Of a stretch of DNA of 64,000 nt, positions 19,245 to 38,584 are shown piece after piece. Under the pieces are notes generated by a model. It did no database searches. It had not been told where the DNA came from and was given only the letters and a program-made list of their open reading frames with translations. Numbering within the stretch: the first letter of the stretch is position 1; each line of letters starts with the position of its first letter. Position numbers and translations under genes: made by a program. This DNA comes from Corallococcus macrosporus (GTDB lineage Bacteria; Myxococcota; Myxococcia; Myxococcales; Myxococcaceae): assembly GCF_017302985.1 (NCBI RefSeq), contig NZ_JAFIMU010000002.1, positions 186,001-250,000 of the forward strand, read 5' to 3'.

Positions 19245-19395
19245 GGCGTGTGGCTCCAGAGGCGTGGGGTGTCTTTCCCGCTGCGTGACTGGACCCAAGA
19301 TGCAAGGCGCCGGTTGCGGTGGTTTGAGCTGGGGGTGAAGAAGTGTGAAGGGCGGGCTTCAACGGCGACAGGGGGGCGAACTAACGTCGCGCGCC

Positions 19396-20298
19396 ATGGA
19401 ATCCCAGTCTGAGTCTGTCGTTTCCACACCCGTGCGGCGCCCGCGCGTGTGGACGGTGTTTGTCGCGTTCGCGGTGATGTTCGGGCTGCTCGTCACGGGG
19501 AGCGTCCTCGTGAACCACGTCGCCACGGGCATCGAGGCGGCGAAAGCCGGCGTGGACCCGAGCGACAGCGGATTGACGGAGCGGGTCGAGTCCCTGCCAT
19601 GGCCGACCGTGGCGGTGGTGATGATGGTCGGCGTGGTGGCGCTGAGCCTCGCGCTCCTGGGTGGCAGGCTGTCCCCGCAGCCCCTGCGCGACCGGCTGCG
19701 CCTGCGGGCCGGCGTGCCGCTGCCGGCCTGGGCCTGGGTCACGGCGGCGGTGGGCTGCTTCGCGGTGGGACAGGTCCTGGAGAGCCTGGCGGTGCTCACG
19801 GGAGCGTGGAGCTGGACGGGGTCGTTGAAGGGATTCCAGGCCGCGAGCCAGGGGCCGCTCGGGACCTTCGCGCTGCTGTTGTTCTTCGGCTCGCCGGTGG
19901 CGGGCACGGCGGAGGAGCTCTTCTTCCGGGGCTACGTGCAGACGCGGCTGGTGGAGCGCTGGGGTCCCAGGGCGGGCGTCGTGGTGGCCGCAACGCTCTT
20001 CGGCCTGCTGCACCTGGATCCGGTCCACGGGCCCATCACCCTGATGGTGGCCTTGTTCCTGGGCTGGCTCGCGGTGCACACGGGAAGCGTGCGGCTGCCC
20101 ATCTTCGTCCACATCGTCAACAACGGAGCGTCCTTCCTCCTCGGCCGCTACGCGCCGCCATCGTCCGAGTACCCGACGTCCGTGCACACGGCGCTGCTCT
20201 GCGTGAGCACGCTGGTGGTGGTGGGTGCCGTGACGTTGCTGCGGCGAATCCCTGGGGCCCCGAAGACAGAAGCACCCGCGATGCTCGTGGGCGCGTGA
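19396..20298 (+). CDS. CPBP-family intramembrane glutamic protease, copy 1
   Basis: A 300-residue polytopic membrane protein of the CPBP/Abi (CaaX protease and bacteriocin-processing) family. The motifs sit in the membrane core: EELFFRGYVQTR (motif 1, EExxxR) at about 176, FGLLHLD (motif 2, FxxxH) at about 205, and HIVNN (motif 3, HxxxN/D) at about 240. The first 20 residues are cytoplasmic and share PRVWTV with a second copy at 25.3 kb. Roles of the family include prenyl-protein processing and bacteriocin self-immunity; none is specified by context here. Confidence 0.9.
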   Translation: MESQSESVVSTPVRRPRVWTVFVAFAVMFGLLVTGSVLVNHVATGIEAAKAGVDPSDSGLTERVESLPWPTVAVVMMVGVVALSLALLGGRLSPQPLRDRLRLRAGVPLPAWAWVTAAVGCFAVGQVLESLAVLTGAWSWTGSLKGFQAASQGPLGTFALLLFFGSPVAGTAEELFFRGYVQTRLVERWGPRAGVVVAATLFGLLHLDPVHGPITLMVALFLGWLAVHTGSVRLPIFVHIVNNGASFLLGRYAPPSSEYPTSVHTALLCVSTLVVVGAVTLLRRIPGAPKTEAPAMLVGA

Positions 20299-23211: not shown

Positions 23212-23736
23212 ATGTCTGAGAACCCTGCCATTCGCACGGATGCCGCCAACCTGCTTGCCTCGCTCATGCCCGGGGGGCTGTTCGGTGTGGCACTTGTGTT
23301 TCTTGCCGGGCAGCCTGGCTTTGGCTGGCTCATCAACCCTTCCCGGTACCCCTGGGAACTGTGGGTGATAGCGCTGGCGGGCACGGTGGCGACGACGGCG
23401 GGCGTGTTGGACTGGCGCTATCACCGCACGGCAGGCATCCGCGTAGGGCCTAACGAGCACCGCGCCGAACTACTCGCCCTGGCGGGAGGGGGGCTGCCCC
23501 TGTTCCTCCTGATGTGCGCCGCCTCGGTGGCTCGGCAATCACGGGCGTTTCTATTGCCCGTCCTCGTCGTGCTGCTGTGGACGGTGGTTCTCATCTGCTA
23601 CGACGAGTTCGTCTTCCACCGGCGGCGGTGTGACGGGCACGAGGCGCTGCTACACCGCACGCTGCTGGCGGGGCATTGCGCGGCCTTCCTGGCCTGGGCG
23701 CACTTCTGCTTTGTCCGCGAGGTCTTCCATGGTTGA
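23212..23736 (+). CDS. Polytopic membrane protein, first gene of a kinase operon
   Basis: A 174-residue protein with about four to five membrane segments (e.g. LMPGGLFGVALVFLAG, WELWVIALAGTVATTAG, AFLLPVLVVLLWTVVLICY). A conserved-looking polar stretch follows: YDEFVFHRRRCDGHEALLH, then AFLAWAHFCF. The His/Glu cluster at the C-terminal membrane face may be functional. The stop overlaps the next start by eight bases (ATGGTTGA), so the genes are translationally coupled. I do not recognise the family; the company of an LPS-kinase-like protein hints at envelope modification. Confidence 0.72.
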   Translation: MSENPAIRTDAANLLASLMPGGLFGVALVFLAGQPGFGWLINPSRYPWELWVIALAGTVATTAGVLDWRYHRTAGIRVGPNEHRAELLALAGGGLPLFLLMCAASVARQSRAFLLPVLVVLLWTVVLICYDEFVFHRRRCDGHEALLHRTLLAGHCAAFLAWAHFCFVREVFHG

Positions 23737-24304
23737 GGCCCTCGCCGCTGTCCTGCCCGACTCGCTGCGGCGGGGCGCGAGGCTGCTGGAGCGCGCAGCG
23801 CGGCTGTATGACGCTCCCAACTCGCCCCTGCCCCGGCGGGCCAGGGGGGCCTGGCGGGGAGGCTTCCAGGGGGGCGCGGCGTGGATGGCCGGGGCGATGG
23901 CGCTTGTGCGGGGCCAGGCTGTGCGCGCACCGCCCCAGGGTGCCTGGACATGGGGATTGGCGAAGTATTCCGCCTCGTTCCTTGCCGCGCTTGGCACCTG
24001 GGCCCTGGCGGTGGGCATGGGGGGACCGCACGCGCTGGGACTGGTGCTCGCCCTGCCCGCCTTCTATGCCGTGGAGGTACAGGGACTGTTCCTCTTTCCG
24101 GTAGCCATCGACGGCGCTCCGCATCCCTGGCGAACCGCGCGCGCGATGCTGCGGGACGTGGGCGGCACGCCAGGCGCGATGGGCACGGTGGGGGTGCTGG
24201 CATCGGTGATGCTGCTGGGCGGGCTGGCTGGACGCGGGCAGGTGCGATGCTGGTGCTTGGGCTGCCTCGCGGTGGTGCTCTGGTACGAGGACCTGCGGAC
24301 ATGA
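23729..24304 (+). CDS. Membrane protein, second gene of a kinase operon
   Basis: A 191-residue protein. A basic amphipathic N-terminus (MVEALAAVLPDSLRRGARLLERAARLY is the first helix) is followed by a short cytoplasmic stretch and about three hydrophobic segments (FLAALGTWALAVGMG, ALGLVLALPAFYAVEVQGLF, GVLASVMLLGGLAG). Its start overlaps the preceding gene and its stop overlaps the following start by ATGA, so the three are made as a set. No family is recognised; no catalytic motif is visible. Confidence 0.7.
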   Translation: MVEALAAVLPDSLRRGARLLERAARLYDAPNSPLPRRARGAWRGGFQGGAAWMAGAMALVRGQAVRAPPQGAWTWGLAKYSASFLAALGTWALAVGMGGPHALGLVLALPAFYAVEVQGLFLFPVAIDGAPHPWRTARAMLRDVGGTPGAMGTVGVLASVMLLGGLAGRGQVRCWCLGCLAVVLWYEDLRT

Positions 24305-25083
24305 GTTTCGCCGGGCTCTTCGCGCTCGCGGTGGACGCCGTGAGCGTCCACGCGGTGGGGCAGGAACAGGGCTTGTGGGTGAAGCGTCGCCGCGCCGGGA
24401 TGGGGGCGGTGATTGCCATTGGCAATGTCTTTCTATACCAGTCACGCAGCCGCATCCGCATGTTCTCCTCATGTGCTCGTTGGCAGGAGCGGGAGCTGGC
24501 ATCCTTCAAGCTCCTGCATCCGGGCCGGTTCGCCGAGCCCCGCGGAAAGGGGGCGGTCGCGCTGGAGGCGCTTCCTGGGGAAGGACTGGACCAACTCGCG
24601 ACGCGGGGGGAGTTCACCCCCGAAGTGGCCGAGGCCGCCGCCCGGGAACTGCGCCGGGCTCATGCGCTGGTCTATCCCGGCACCGCAGAGCCGTGGTCGC
24701 ACGGGGACGCGCACCTGAAGAACTTCCTCTACGAAGCGGCCGGCGCGCGCGCGTGGCTCATCGACTTCGAGACGCGGCACGAGGCGCATCTGGCCCCCGA
24801 GGCGCGCCATGCGGACGACCTGCTCGTCTTCTTGTTGGACTTGGCGGGACGCGTCCCCAGGGCCGAGGAACTCTCGCGGGCGTTTCTTCGCGCCTATGCC
24901 CGCGAAAACGTGCTTCGCGCCCTGCTCGCCCGGCTGCGGCCCCCCCGGGGATTGGAACGGGCGCTGTGGCGGAGCCGCTCCGGGCATCTGCCCCAGGCGC
25001 GGCTCCTGGGCTGGCTGGAGCACCTCCGTGAGGATGTGATCCGCCTGACTCAGTCTCCGGAGCCGCCTGTCGACGCGGGATGA
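24301..25083 (+). CDS. WaaP/Kdo-kinase-like phosphotransferase
   Basis: A 260-residue protein-kinase-like fold. The catalytic loop is HGDAHLKNFLY (HxDxxxxN, about residue 138) and the metal-binding loop is LIDFETRH (DFE in place of DFG, about 157), as in lipopolysaccharide and Kdo kinases and aminoglycoside phosphotransferases. The small N-lobe has a Lys in VKRRRAG (about 28) and an acidic helix WQERELASFKLL (about 61), fitting the Lys-Glu pair. Its start overlaps the preceding membrane-protein gene by ATGA. A role in phosphorylating an envelope lipid or glycan is inferred from the fold and the two membrane partners. No transmembrane segment of its own. Confidence 0.82.
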   Translation: MSFAGLFALAVDAVSVHAVGQEQGLWVKRRRAGMGAVIAIGNVFLYQSRSRIRMFSSCARWQERELASFKLLHPGRFAEPRGKGAVALEALPGEGLDQLATRGEFTPEVAEAAARELRRAHALVYPGTAEPWSHGDAHLKNFLYEAAGARAWLIDFETRHEAHLAPEARHADDLLVFLLDLAGRVPRAEELSRAFLRAYARENVLRALLARLRPPRGLERALWRSRSGHLPQARLLGWLEHLREDVIRLTQSPEPPVDAG

Positions 25084-25293: not shown

Positions 25294-26235
25294 ATGGATT
25301 GTCCTTCCGAGCCAGCCTCCGCCGTCACGTCGCCTGCTCCTGCGTCACCGCGCCCGCGCGTGTGGACGGTGCTGGTGGCCTTCCTGTTGCTGCTGATGGG
25401 GATCCTCGCGGTGAGCGTCACGGTGGCCAGCATCGCGATGGCGGTGGAGATCGCCCGCACAGGAGTGGATCCCCGGGACAGCAAAGCCATCCTGGCCCTG
25501 ACTGAACAGCTCAAGACGATGTCCTGGCTCCAGGTGGCTGGAGTCATCACGTCGAGCCTCCTGGGGCTGACTGCCGCGCTCCTGGGCGGGTTCCTGTCCC
25601 CGAAGCCCCTGACGGAGCGGTTGCGGCTGGGGAAGGGGACACCGTTGCCGGCGTGGGCCTGGGGTGCCGCGCTCGTGGGCTGCTTCACGATGGGACAGGC
25701 GCTGGAGAGCCTGTCCGTCCTCACGGGTGTCTGGGATTACACGGCGTCGCTGAAGGGGTTGCAGGCCGTCAGCCAGGGCTCGCTCGCGACCTTCGCGCTG
25801 TTGCTGTTCTTCGGCACGCTGGTGGCGGGCACAGCGGAGGAACTTTTCTTCCGGGGCTATGTGCAGACGCGGCTGGTGGAGCGCTGGGGGAAGTGGGCCG
25901 GCATCGCGGGCGCTGCGGCGCTCTTCGGGTTCCTGCACCTGGATCCCATCCACAGCCCCATGGCCTTGATGATGGGCCTGTTCCTGGGCTGGCTCGCGGA
26001 GCGCACGGGCAGCCTGCGCCTGCCCATCTTCGTCCACATCCTCAACAACCTGACGTCGTTCCTGCTGTCTCGCTACGCGCCGCCCACCGCGGAGCTGCCA
26101 ACCTCCGTGCACGTGACGCTGCTGGTGGTGTGCTCACTGGCGTTCGTGGGCGTGGTGCTGGCGCTGCGGCGGTCGGCATTTCATTCAGTGCGAGGTGGGA
26201 CTGAACAGCATCCGTTGCCGCAACACGCTCAGTGA
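25294..26235 (+). CDS. CPBP-family intramembrane glutamic protease, copy 2
   Basis: A 313-residue paralogue of the CPBP gene at 19.4 kb, colinear along its whole length. Motifs are EELFFRGYVQTR (about 187), FGFLHLD and HILNN. Shared landmarks outside the motifs are PRPRVWTV near the start, a GVDPRDS/GVDPSDS linker and LSPKPLTERLRL/LSPQPLRDRLRL, so the two arose by duplication rather than by shared family alone. Its last 51 bases overlap the convergent hypothetical gene. The C-terminal tail after the last helix (VRGGTEQHPL) is not conserved with copy 1. Confidence 0.9.
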   Translation: MDCPSEPASAVTSPAPASPRPRVWTVLVAFLLLLMGILAVSVTVASIAMAVEIARTGVDPRDSKAILALTEQLKTMSWLQVAGVITSSLLGLTAALLGGFLSPKPLTERLRLGKGTPLPAWAWGAALVGCFTMGQALESLSVLTGVWDYTASLKGLQAVSQGSLATFALLLFFGTLVAGTAEELFFRGYVQTRLVERWGKWAGIAGAAALFGFLHLDPIHSPMALMMGLFLGWLAERTGSLRLPIFVHILNNLTSFLLSRYAPPTAELPTSVHVTLLVVCSLAFVGVVLALRRSAFHSVRGGTEQHPLPQHAQ

Positions 26236-33418: not shown

Positions 33419-33473
33419 TGGCAGTCGCCGGCCCTGCTTCGCGGTGGCCGGGGAATGTCTGCTAGAAAGTGTT

Positions 33474-33510
33474 GCAGCCCTGCGTGCCGTACACGAAGCC
33501 GCAGGGCTGC
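33474..33510 (+). promoter_or_regulatory. Leader hairpin of the first giant lipoprotein gene
   Basis: An 11-bp perfect inverted repeat (GCAGCCCTGCG / CGCAGGGCTGC) with a 15-base loop, ending 19 bases before the ATG at 33530. The same hairpin occurs at the same place before the second copy, with one compensated base pair. The TGCTAGAAAG block 10-15 bases upstream (33460s) is also conserved and could be a -10 region. A transcript leader structure that affects translation or stability is the likely role (inference). Confidence 0.5.
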
Positions 33511-33529
33511 TCGCTGGACAGGGACATCC

Positions 33530-36500
33530 ATGACGCCACGCTTTGCCTTGCTCGCCCGCTGTCTGGGGGTGGGTTTGTTGTGTCTGGGATTGTCCCTGGG
33601 CTGCACGGAGCCTGGAGTCTCCCCGCTACCGCCGCTGGTGCATTCCGGGGGGGACGCGGGCACGGACGCCGGGACGGACGCAGGCGCGGATGCAGACGCC
33701 GGGACGGACGCGGGCGCGGATGCGGGCACCGAGCCGACCGTGGATGCGGTGAACTCCACGGTGACGGTGAATCGCCCCGGGGCCATTCCGGCGGACGGCC
33801 AGGAAGTGGCGGTCGTTACGGTGACGGTGCTGCTGACGGACGGCTCGCCGGCGGTGGGGCTGACGGTGACGGTGACGGTGACGGGAGAGGGGGCTTCCGT
33901 GACGCAGGCTGCCGGCGCGACGGACGCGGAAGGCCGAACCACCGCGAAGGTGGCTTCGACGGTGCCGGGCATGAAGTCGGTGATGGCGTCGGTGACGGAT
34001 GCCCTGGGCAGCAAGGTGTCGCTCACCCAGACGGCCACGGTGGAGTTCGTGGAGGTCCGCACCGTGAAGACGCTGGCGTTCCGCTCGACACTGCCGGATG
34101 GCGTGGCGGGCGTGCCGCTCCAGGGCCTGGTGGTGGAGGTGCGGGACGGCGCTGGCGCGGTGGTGGCGGACAGCACGGCGGAGGTGACGCTGTCGCTGGG
34201 CTCCGGCGCAACGGCATCCCCGGAGGGCCTGTTGACGGTGTCCGCGGTGAATGGCGTCGCGACCTTTGCGGACGTGGTGCTGAAGAAGGCGGCTGGGGGC
34301 TACTCCTTCATGGCGAGCGCTTCGGGCTTCGAGCCCGTCACCAGTTCCGTCTTCACGGTGGCGCCGGGGGCCGTAGCCGCACTGGGATTTGACCACCGCT
34401 TGGAGACCGCCACTGCGGGTGTGGCCCAGGACCTGGAGGTCACGCTCGCGGACACGTACGCCAACACGGTGACGAACTACACGGGCACGGTGAAGCTGAC
34501 GTCCACGGACGCGGCCGCGGCGCTGCCCTCCCACACGTTCACCGCCGCGAACGCGGGCAGGTTCAAGTTCCAGGGCCTCACCTTCCGCACGGCCGGGCCT
34601 CAGACCCTGACCCTCGCGGACCTCGCGGGCGCCTTCTCGTTCACGTCCTCCGTGGACGTGTCCGGCGCACTGCCTACGCACATGGTCTTCACGCAGCAGC
34701 CGGCCACGCGGGTGTCGACGCGCGGGGCCTTGGGGCCCGTGAAGGTCGAGTTGAAGGACCCCTTCGGCAATACCTCGCCGGTGACTGGCATCCTGGTGCG
34801 TGTATCGGTGCCGGCGGGTGCCTTCACGCTTTCGGGAGGGTTGCAGCAGTGGGCTGATGGGGGTGTCGCGACGTTCCCGGACCTGAGCCTCATGGGACAT
34901 GGCATCACGCACCTGATTGCCTCCGTGGCGCCTCTCCAGATGCAGGATGTGAGCGGCGCGGACGTGCAGGTGGTGGACGACGTGGCACCCGCGAAGCCGG
35001 AGTTGACGCAGACGGAGGGCACGGAGACGGGGCTCACCGTGCAGTGGACCGGGGTGGGGGATGACGGTGTGCTGGGGCAGGCGACGTCGCAGGAGTTGCG
35101 CTACTCAACGTCTGTCATCACCACGGATGCGGCCTTCGACGCGGCGACGCCAGTGACTGCCGCTGTCCCCGGGCCTCCGGGCACGGTGCAGTCCGCGACG
35201 CTCTCCGGCCTGAAGCCGGCCACGACGTACCACGTGGCGTTGAAGGTGACGGACGCGCACGGCAACTCCGCGCGTTCGGAGAGCCTCGCGGTGTCCACCG
35301 CGGATCCGCAGGTGACGCAGTTGGCGTTCACGCCGCAGCCCTCGAACGGTACCGCGGGCTCCGAACTCGCGGACGTGAAGGTTTCGCTGCTGGACGCGCG
35401 CGGGGACGTCGTCCCCAAGGCCTCCAGCGTGGTGACGTTGACCCTGACCGGTCAGCCGGGCTTCCCCGCGGTGACGGTGTCTGCGGTGGATGGCGTGGCC
35501 ACCTTCTCCGGCCTGCGCGTGGACACGGCGGGCACGTATACGTTCACCGCTATGGAGGACGCGCTGACGAAGGGGAGCCAGCCCTTCACGGTGGACCCCG
35601 GTGCGGCGGCGAAGCTCGTGCTGTCGGCCCTGCCGGCCTCGGTCTCCGCGGGCGCTTCACTCGACGTGACCGTGTCCGTAACGGATGCGTACGACAACCG
35701 CCTGGAGGACTACGCCGGCACGGTGCACTTCACGGCCTCGGACACGCAGGCGGTGCTGCCCTCGGACGCGGTGTTCGCCCCGCCGGACGGGGGACAGAAG
35801 ACGGTCTCCGGCCTCGTGTTCAAGACGGCGGGAGCGCAGTCGCTCACCGCCACGGCACCGGCCCTCACCGCGACGGTGAACACCGAGGTGCGCGCCAGCA
35901 CGGCGGCGTCCCTGGCGGTCGTCGCGAGCGCGGAGCCCGTCATCGCGGGGCAGGCGTCGAGCTACGAGGTGGTGGCGCATGACGCCTGGGGCAACGTGGC
36001 GAAGGACTACGCGTCCACGGTGACCTTCGCCTCCTCGGACACGCGGGCGGTGCTGCCGGGCGCGTACACGTTCACCCTGCTGGACGAGGGCCGGCACCTC
36101 TTCAGCGTGGAGTTGCGCACCGCCGGGGACCAGGACGTCACCGTGGAGGACGTGGCGGACCCGTCACTTACGGCTACGCATCCCTACGCCATCGTCCCCG
36201 CCGCTGCCGCCCAGTTGGCCTTCGTCTCCGCCCCCGCGACGGGCTCGGTGAGGCAGGCGCTGGCGGATATCGCGGTCGCGGTGAAGGACCTCTACGACAA
36301 CACAGTTGCCAGCGCGTCCGCTGATGTGCAGCTGGCGCTGGTGGGAGGCACCTTCGCCCAGGGCATTCCCACGCGCGCCGCCGTGGACGGTGTGGCCACG
36401 TTCAGCGGCCTCAGCCTGGATGCCGAGGGCACGTACCAGCTCCAGGCGAGCGCGGACGGCTTCCAGGACATCACGTCCGGGGACCTGAGTGTCTCCGATA

Positions 36501-38584
36501 CGCAGGCGCCGGCCGCCGCAGCGGGCTTCAGCGCGACGGCGGTGTCGGGCGACAGCATCCGGCTGGCATGGCAGGCCCCTGGCGACGACGGCGTCCTGGG
36601 CACGGCCGCTCGCTACGAGCTGCGCTACGCCATGTCCGCCATTACCGACGCCACCTTCGACTCCGCGACGCTCGTGATGGGCGTGGCCGCGCCGAAGACG
36701 GTGGGCACGGCGGAGTCCTTCACTGTCAGCGGCCTGATGGTGGGGACGACGTACCACTTCGCGCTGAGGACCTTCGACGGCGCGGACAACGCCAGCGCGC
36801 TCGCCAACGCGAGCACCGCCACCACCAACCCCTGCGACGGCTACGTGTGCTCGCCGCCCGCGTCCCAGTGCGCGGAGGACGGCACGTCGCTGGAGGTGTA
36901 CTCGTCGGTCTGCGTGGTGCAGGGCGGCATGCCGACCTGCGAGCCCGGCGAGCCGAACCTCCAGGCCTGCCCTGGCGCGGACGCGGTCTGCTACGCGGGC
37001 GCATGCGCCACGGCGCCGCACCCGGGCGCGGGCGAGCTGGTCCTGTCGGAGGTGATGCACTCGCCGTCCGCGGGCACCACGGAGTACCTGGAGCTGACCA
37101 ACACCACGTCGAAGCTGCTGGATGCCAACGGCCTGGTGGTGAACCTGGTGAACGGCGCAGGCACGCCCACGACCATCACGGTGAACCACGGCCACGCGCT
37201 GCTGGTGCCGGCCGGGAGCCGCACGGTGCTCGCGCAGAGCGCGAACTTCGGCACCAACGGCGGCGTGGCTGCGAATCACGCCTGGGGCCCGGACATCTCC
37301 CTGGACAGCACCGGCTCCATCACGCTCGAGCAGGGCACGGTGACGGTGGACAGCCTCACGTATACGAACGCGTTCCCGCAGACGACGGGCCGGGCCATGA
37401 GCCTCGCGTCCAGCATCGTGGGGACGAAGGGCAGCGCTCGCGCCTGGTACTGGTGTGAGTCCACCGGCAGCCTCTCCGGCGGAGACCGGGGCACGCCGGG
37501 CCAGGCCAACGACGACTGCGGCCTGAACGTGGAGAAGCCGCTCAACTTCTGCGCCATCCAGTCCCCGAAGACGTTCCCGTCGGGCAGCGCCTACCCGACG
37601 TTCATCACCGCCACGGAGAGCTACGACATCCTCAGCCAGTTCAACAGCTCCGACGTCACGCAGCGGAACACGAAGGGCAACGACTTCTATCCGCGCATCG
37701 AGGCGCAGCTGGGCTACGGCACGGACGCCACCAACCCCGCGGGCTGGACGTGGAGGGCGGCGGACTTCAACGCGGCCTTCAGCCCGTCGAACTCCAACAA
37801 CGACGAGATGAAGGCCGCGCTGCGGATTCCCACGGCCGGCACGTACAGCTACGGCTTTCGCTACCGGTTCACGGACGCGGGCGCGCCGTGGGTGTACTGC
37901 GATCAGAATGGCAAGACGGTGCCGCCCGCGGGCACCTGGGGCACGGTGCAGGTGGCCAAGCCTCCGCTGACGAACCACGTGGTCATCAGCGAGGTTTCCA
38001 CCTCCAGCGTGGCGAACGCGGATGATGACTTCATCGAGCTCTACAATCCGACCCATACGGACATCGACCTGACGGGCTGGAAGCTGATGTACAGCCACGC
38101 GTGGACTCACTGGACGGACTACACCCTTGCGGCGACAGTGGCCACCACCACGCCCCGCAAGGTCATCAAGGCGCATGGCTATTTCTTGTTCGCGAGCCCC
38201 CGCTTCGCCTCCAGTAATCCGTCCGTGGGCGTGGATACGGTCTGGGTCAGTTTCGTGGACCTGCAGCTAGGTGGGGGAAACATCCGGCTGGGTGATCCGA
38301 CCTCAGCCCTCAAGGCCACCACGACGACGGGTGTCGTGGACACGCTGGCCTACGGAACGGGCCTTCTGGTGGCCGAAGTCTCAGCGGCCATGGCGCCGCC
38401 ATCAGGCGGGGGCAGTATCGAGCGCAAAGCCGTGTCCACCTCCGGCTCCGGCTCCATGTACTACCCGCTTGGCGAGGATGCCTTGAGGGGCAACGCCTAC
38501 GACTCGAACTTCAACTTCGCGGACTTCGTGGAGCTCTTCCGGCGCGCCCCCCAGAACTCCGCGAGCCCGATCGAGTTCTACTGA
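33530..38584 (+). CDS. Giant surface lipoprotein with Ig-like, FN3 and lamin-tail domains, copy 1
   Basis: 1,684 residues. Lipoprotein signal ends in LSLGC; a 27-residue Asp/Gly/Ala/Thr spacer (about 41-70) follows. Then about eight to nine beta-sandwich repeats of the invasin/Big type ([44 protein letters not shown] and similar). Two FN3 domains lie near 490-590 and 990-1,100; then a Cys-rich EGF-like stretch (PCDGYVC…CATAPHP, about 1,101-1,165) and two lamin-tail domains, LTD, near 1,168-1,270 ([19 protein letters not shown]) and 1,483-1,590 ([20 protein letters not shown]). This looks like an adhesin or outer-surface scaffold anchored by its lipid; no catalytic motif. The second copy starts 266 bp further on. 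Confidence 0.88.
33655..33735 (+). repeat. Asp/Gly-rich coding repeat in the lipoprotein spacer
   Basis: Imperfect tandem units of about 12 bases (GACGCGGGCACG-like) encode GTDAG/GADAG repeats just after the lipidated Cys of copy 1. Copy 2 lacks this stretch. Short coding repeats of this kind expand and shrink readily by slippage. Confidence 0.6.
37339..37583 (+). repeat. Near-identical tract, copy 1 of 2
   Basis: A 245-bp coding tract after the first lamin-tail domain that matches 41946-42190 with only two mismatches that I can see. Similarity stays very high for a further ~170 bp after a small indel. Sequence just upstream is clearly diverged. Confidence 0.8.

Follow-up and report, generated by a model that had tools for sequence, protein, structure and literature searches.

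The described enzymes closest to the system analyzed here are calcineurin-like phosphoesterases and kinases of the APH/Kdo superfamily. LpxG, a phosphoesterase with described metal motifs, acts on a membrane lipid nucleotide, evidence that membrane-bound nucleotide lipids can serve as substrates for enzymes of this kind (PMC4807358). On the kinase side, WaaP has a His at the Asn position of the catalytic loop (PMC6147952). Herein, we describe a three-gene cassette from Corallococcus macrosporus (9.8-Mb genome), located in a window (i.e., the whole stretch of DNA that was analyzed) of 64,000 nucleotides and encoding two membrane proteins, G1 and G2, followed by a kinase (Table 1). No description of the cassette was found in the open-licence literature; it represents an uncharacterised system and not an ordinary lipopolysaccharide (LPS) kinase operon.

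Table 1. Features of the cassette, in window coordinates
Feature	Position	Strand	Description
G1	23212..23736	+	Membrane protein of 174 aa with five helices; unnamed family; putative metal site
G2	23729..24304	+	Polytopic membrane protein of 191 aa; a second unnamed family
G3 (kinase)	24301..25083	+	260-aa APH/Kdo-superfamily kinase; hydrophobic N-terminal stretch at residues 1-19
G1/G2 overlap	23729..23736	+	8 bases; 8 or 11 bases across ten myxobacterial loci (10/10)
G2/kinase overlap	24301..24304	+	4-base ATGA; 4 bases in 9/10 myxobacterial loci
DNA block shared with other myxobacterial copies	23239..25049	+	Similarity ends at the cassette limits

An earlier note on this DNA had described a three-gene overlapping operon with its products made in fixed ratio. 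The overlaps, of 8 and 4 bases, are borne out by the ORF coordinates, and overlapping genes are seen in Bacteroidota copies of the cassette as well; overlaps indicate translational coupling only, however, and the fixed ratio does not follow from them. Homologues in a second genus share 79% (G1), 62% (G2), and 67% (kinase) protein identity with the gene order kept, dN/dS of the cassette genes is 0.17-0.35 (versus four relatives), and the starts of both G2 and the kinase are preceded by purine-rich GAGG stretches. The three ORFs are thus real genes, and purifying selection acts on G1, G2, and the kinase.

The G1 model displays five long helices (pLDDT 88, pTM 0.80). Nine residues, i.e., D67, H71, E82, D131, E132, H136, C140, E144, and H148, are invariant in 39/39 sequences from at least four phyla, and in the same 39 sequences His is the sole replacement at E86. 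Helices 48-74 and 110-136 carry these polar residues at their ends and helices 80-106 and 142-167 at their starts, with others in the short loop 137-141; this places the cluster at one membrane face, with its convergence on a single site judged from helix positions in the model only. The His, Glu, and Asp cluster noticed earlier at a membrane face of the first gene product thus holds, its residues being conserved in all 39 sequences. The face is Arg-rich and so, by the positive-inside rule, probably cytoplasmic in orientation, and its invariant Asp/Glu/His/Cys residues, in a pattern typical of metal sites, suggest a putative metal site. An internal duplication of G1, for which DxxxH...E was seen twice by eye, was rejected after hhalign comparison of the two halves (E 0.16-0.22, no better than controls). 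The G2 model is of high confidence (pLDDT 96, pTM 0.90), with invariant residues F46, W52, M53, G76, K79, F112, Y113, E116, F121, F123, and P124. For neither G1 nor G2 was there a significant match in Pfam, NCBIfam, or PDB folds, in agreement with their initial description as membrane proteins of unknown family.

For the kinase, the HxDxxxxN and DFE motifs reported in the earlier note are present as HGDxHxxN (residues 134-141) and DFE (155-157), along with K28 and E65; K28, E65, H134-G-D136, and D155 are invariant in 13 sequences. The accompanying Kdo/WaaP-like label amounts to a weak resemblance: the APH, Kdo, and TCAD9 matches of the window kinase all fall below cut-offs, APH is matched by more family members, and no WaaP chain in the PDB was matched. 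Among the 13 members, Pfam matches, all of them weak, were to APH (13/13, best 8.9e-7), TCAD9 (11/13), and Kdo (10/13, best 4e-5), with the window kinase itself scoring 16.9 bits against APH PF01636 (gathering cut-off 23.2) and 15.5 bits (E 0.012) against Kdo PF06293 (gathering cut-off 21.3). The NCBIfam Kdo-kinase model PRK01723 weakly matched 7/13 relatives (best 2.9e-4), with the window kinase unmatched at E up to 10; to the KEOPS Bud32 model TIGR03724 the window kinase scored 26.4 bits, below the 125-bit cut-off. In view of its PF06293 score and gene context, we do not file the kinase under Kdo/WaaP; by its sequence it appears APH/Kdo-like and may work similarly to the Kdo/WaaP kinases. 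The TCAD9 (Ternary complex associated domain 9) matches, with a best value of 8.1e-7, are about as strong as those to APH.

Within Myxococcaceae, G1 is present in 13/96 genomes (about one in seven) and, among 16 genomes sampled from the genus of the window, only in the window's own; across a 195-genome sample of the phylum, the kinase is confined to exactly the same 13 genomes as G1. An initial scan of genome contigs with the kinase as sole query gave no match. Between the window and other myxobacterial copies, DNA similarity extends from ~23239 to ~25049, no further than the cassette limits, and the DNA flanking the copies in the window, L005, L033, and L032 is unrelated. The three genes therefore move together. 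This points to a self-contained cassette undergoing horizontal movement or repeated loss, and the self-contained character suggested earlier is reinforced by the unrelated flanks as well as by the identical genome sets of G1 and kinase. Third-position GC in the cassette is slightly lower than in two neighbouring genes. Neighbours encode Rce1-like proteases, a beta-lactamase-fold protein, a sulfatase, and DnaE. The reported absence of a nearby LPS-core gene holds across the ten neighbouring ORFs scanned, and no lipid-synthesis gene or biosynthetic cluster is a recurrent neighbour of the cassette. A phage origin was rejected, no phage or viral-contig relative having been found.

Several further features of these loci were observed. 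A similar pair of Rce1-like (CPBP) membrane proteases, encoded on the same strand (19345-20298 and 25294-26235), brackets the beta-lactamase-fold gene and the cassette, an arrangement reminiscent of an insertion site with copies of a duplicated gene on either side. Further along the window, 33455-38584 encodes a predicted surface protein of 1709 aa that combines Ig-like, fibronectin type III, and lamin-tail domains. Myxococcus xanthus AM003 carries a decayed cassette (L036, 10076-11265) in which G1 is kept, G2 is gone, and the kinase is without its C-terminal part; the same decayed form is found at L019 and L031.

Scanning with the G1 pair identified 32 loci, in Myxococcota, Bacteroidota, Planctomycetota, Elusimicrobiota, and unplaced metagenome-assembled genomes, a count in which distant members are under-sampled since the scan relied on two peptide patterns. 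Outside Myxococcaceae, G2 adjoins G1 in 23/26 loci of this genome scan, and a calcineurin-like metallophosphoesterase is encoded near G1-G2 in 22/26; all six additional Planctomycetota loci carry G1-G2-phosphoesterase. A single ORF encodes G2 fused to the phosphoesterase in each of L038, L040, and L075. Outside myxobacteria, in Bacteroidota, Planctomycetota, and others, the conserved core is G1-G2 with a cytosolic LpxG/YaeI-like metallophosphoesterase. Far from rarely co-occurring, G1 and G2 are found together across phyla, and all three families within Myxococcaceae. Occurrence is sparse: 1/396 Bacteroidota genomes (the seed), 7/294 Planctomycetota (including the seed), and 1/295 Elusimicrobiota (the seed). 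Two membrane families without known fold or family relatives are thus coupled repeatedly, in at least four phyla and both chromosomally and on plasmids, and carry no annotation beyond hypothetical protein.

A membrane protein with an SRPBCC-like C-terminal domain is encoded in 11/26 of the non-Myxococcaceae loci, and this SRPBCC (polyketide-cyclase/lipid-transport-like) protein is the fourth cassette gene in many Bacteroidota, found downstream of the phosphoesterase in L046, L047, L048, L055, L060, L061, and L062, and upstream of G1 in L042. The four-gene form is also borne by two Hymenobacter plasmids, on which its products are annotated as a metallophosphoesterase and hypothetical proteins. 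By decay or sequencing error, G2 is split into two frames in L041 (10518-11250) and L045 (10372-10883), as is the SRPBCC-type gene in L059 (11643-12617). In a planctomycete (L077, 6077-7570), ~30 residues interrupt the phosphoesterase domain between its two matched halves.

The partner phosphoesterase bears all of the calcineurin-like metal motifs (SDxH, GGDxxD, GNHD, and GHLHG) and, by inspection, is without an N-terminal transmembrane helix. The Mucilaginibacter protein matched YaeI (2.8e-19) and LpxG (2.8e-11) at 69.6 and 43.3 bits, below the NCBIfam equivalog cut-offs of 188 and 350.

In Myxococcaceae, the slot of this phosphoesterase is occupied by the kinase. Besides Myxococcaceae, the latter was found in a single contig, L039 from Elusimicrobiota, with the gene order G1-G2-phosphoesterase-kinase; the kinase as defining partner of the membrane proteins, implicit in the earlier account, thus gives way to a metallophosphoesterase as third gene in other phyla. 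Neither the window nor the 20-kb myxobacterial loci contained a phosphoesterase of the cassette type. A phosphoesterase hidden at the myxobacterial cassette was accordingly rejected, with eight distant paralogues (best 1e-21) found elsewhere in the genome. The G1 tree places Myxococcaceae in one supported clade (100/99), among phosphoesterase-carrying lineages, with weak deeper branches. By the simplest history, the kinase would have joined a G1-G2-phosphoesterase cassette, with the phosphoesterase then lost toward Myxococcaceae. Such a phosphoesterase-for-kinase exchange at one operon position is unusual, and comparison of the two forms could reveal a shared substrate.

Our preferred reading, proposed tentatively and with somewhat less than even confidence, is that a membrane-modification cassette moves horizontally and that the trio represents its form in myxobacteria. 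Beyond the observed genetic linkage, gene fusions, gene overlaps, and conserved cluster, we infer a substrate, metal, chemistry, and cytoplasmic side of action as follows. G1 would be an enzyme altering a membrane lipid or lipid-linked molecule, with the D/H/E cluster binding one or two metal ions on the cytoplasmic side. G2 would hold the substrate or anchor the soluble enzyme. Phosphate on the same class of molecule would then be removed at the cytoplasmic side by the phosphoesterase in other lineages and added by the kinase here; envelope phosphorylation by the cassette is a hypothesis. Counting against this lipid-modification scheme are the want of a recurring lipid-synthesis neighbour and of a fold match for G1. 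Moreover, a change from phosphatase to kinase is one to the opposite chemistry, such that the targets may differ or the role may be regulatory. A bolder version, which we consider doubtful albeit possible, is that G1 founds a new class of small five-helix membrane metalloenzymes, within a mobile pathway for the synthesis or remodelling of an unknown phospholipid-like compound, in which the phosphate-removing step was exchanged for a phosphate-adding one in myxobacteria.

Of the other explanations weighed, a transport or channel module is unlikely. Here, G2 (with a CysZ-like fold) and G1 would form a metal- or anion-handling complex set by the kinase or phosphoesterase. Metal transporters also have acidic/His clusters at the membrane face, and CysZ tops the PDB fold matches of G2 (TM-score 0.52); that match is not significant (E 0.58), though, no transporter family was matched by G1 or G2, and the G1 cluster, confined to helix ends at a single face, does not line a path across the membrane. 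It is rather improbable that the locus encodes a Kdo/WaaP-type LPS or core-sugar kinase with two dedicated membrane helpers, phosphorylating LPS. The weak Kdo matches (10/13, best 4e-5, in Pfam; 7/13 in NCBIfam) and the kept HGDxHxxN and DFE motifs would fit such an enzyme, but APH matches more members, and more strongly, and Asn141 is kept where WaaP has His (PMC6147952). In most lineages, the presumed helpers are also without any kinase, no LPS gene is present among the ten neighbouring ORFs, and a patchy presence in 13/96 genomes is unfit for a core LPS step.

Somewhat more improbable still would be a role in chemical defence or self-resistance, with an APH-like kinase inactivating a small molecule that G1-G2 sense, alter, or export. 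The myxobacterial lifestyle is antibiotic-rich, the distribution is patchy and in part plasmid-borne, and APH is the most frequent Pfam match (13/13); most copies of the system nevertheless have no kinase, no biosynthetic cluster recurrently adjoins them, and PADLOC gave no match for G1, G2, or the kinase. A defence system as such was rejected on the same PADLOC result, with the phosphoesterase matching a candidate-defence model at just 2.9e-5, as might be expected of any calcineurin-like enzyme. We give the least credence to signalling, whereby kinase and phosphoesterase would control a membrane function through their action on proteins, perhaps on G1 and G2. Their genes do occur together in L039 and substitute for each other elsewhere, yet LpxG-type enzymes hydrolyse small phosphodiesters and nucleotides, and the kinase is closest to small-molecule kinases.

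By analogy with membrane di-metal enzymes, G1 has invariant D/E/H candidate ligands from several helices at one face, yet matches no known family of this kind by fold (PDB, E < 0.001) or in Pfam. For G2, the best Foldseek match is CysZ (TM-score 0.52/0.46, E 0.58, 15% identity), which is not significant and is not accompanied by a profile match. The partner phosphoesterase shares the full metal motifs of LpxG/YaeI, but is far below their equivalog cut-offs and is coupled or fused to G2. With WaaP/KdkA (PF06293), the kinase shares the Lys, the Glu, the H-x-D loop, the acidic metal motif, and compactness; it differs in its weak scores, its location away from LPS genes, its ties to G1-G2, and, as a family, in keeping Asn141 where WaaP has His (PMC6147952). 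With APH/choline-kinase-like proteins (PF01636), it shares the HGDxHxxN and ID-F/W-E signatures, but differs from these in that, in the searched genomes, the cassette kinase is always coupled to two membrane proteins.
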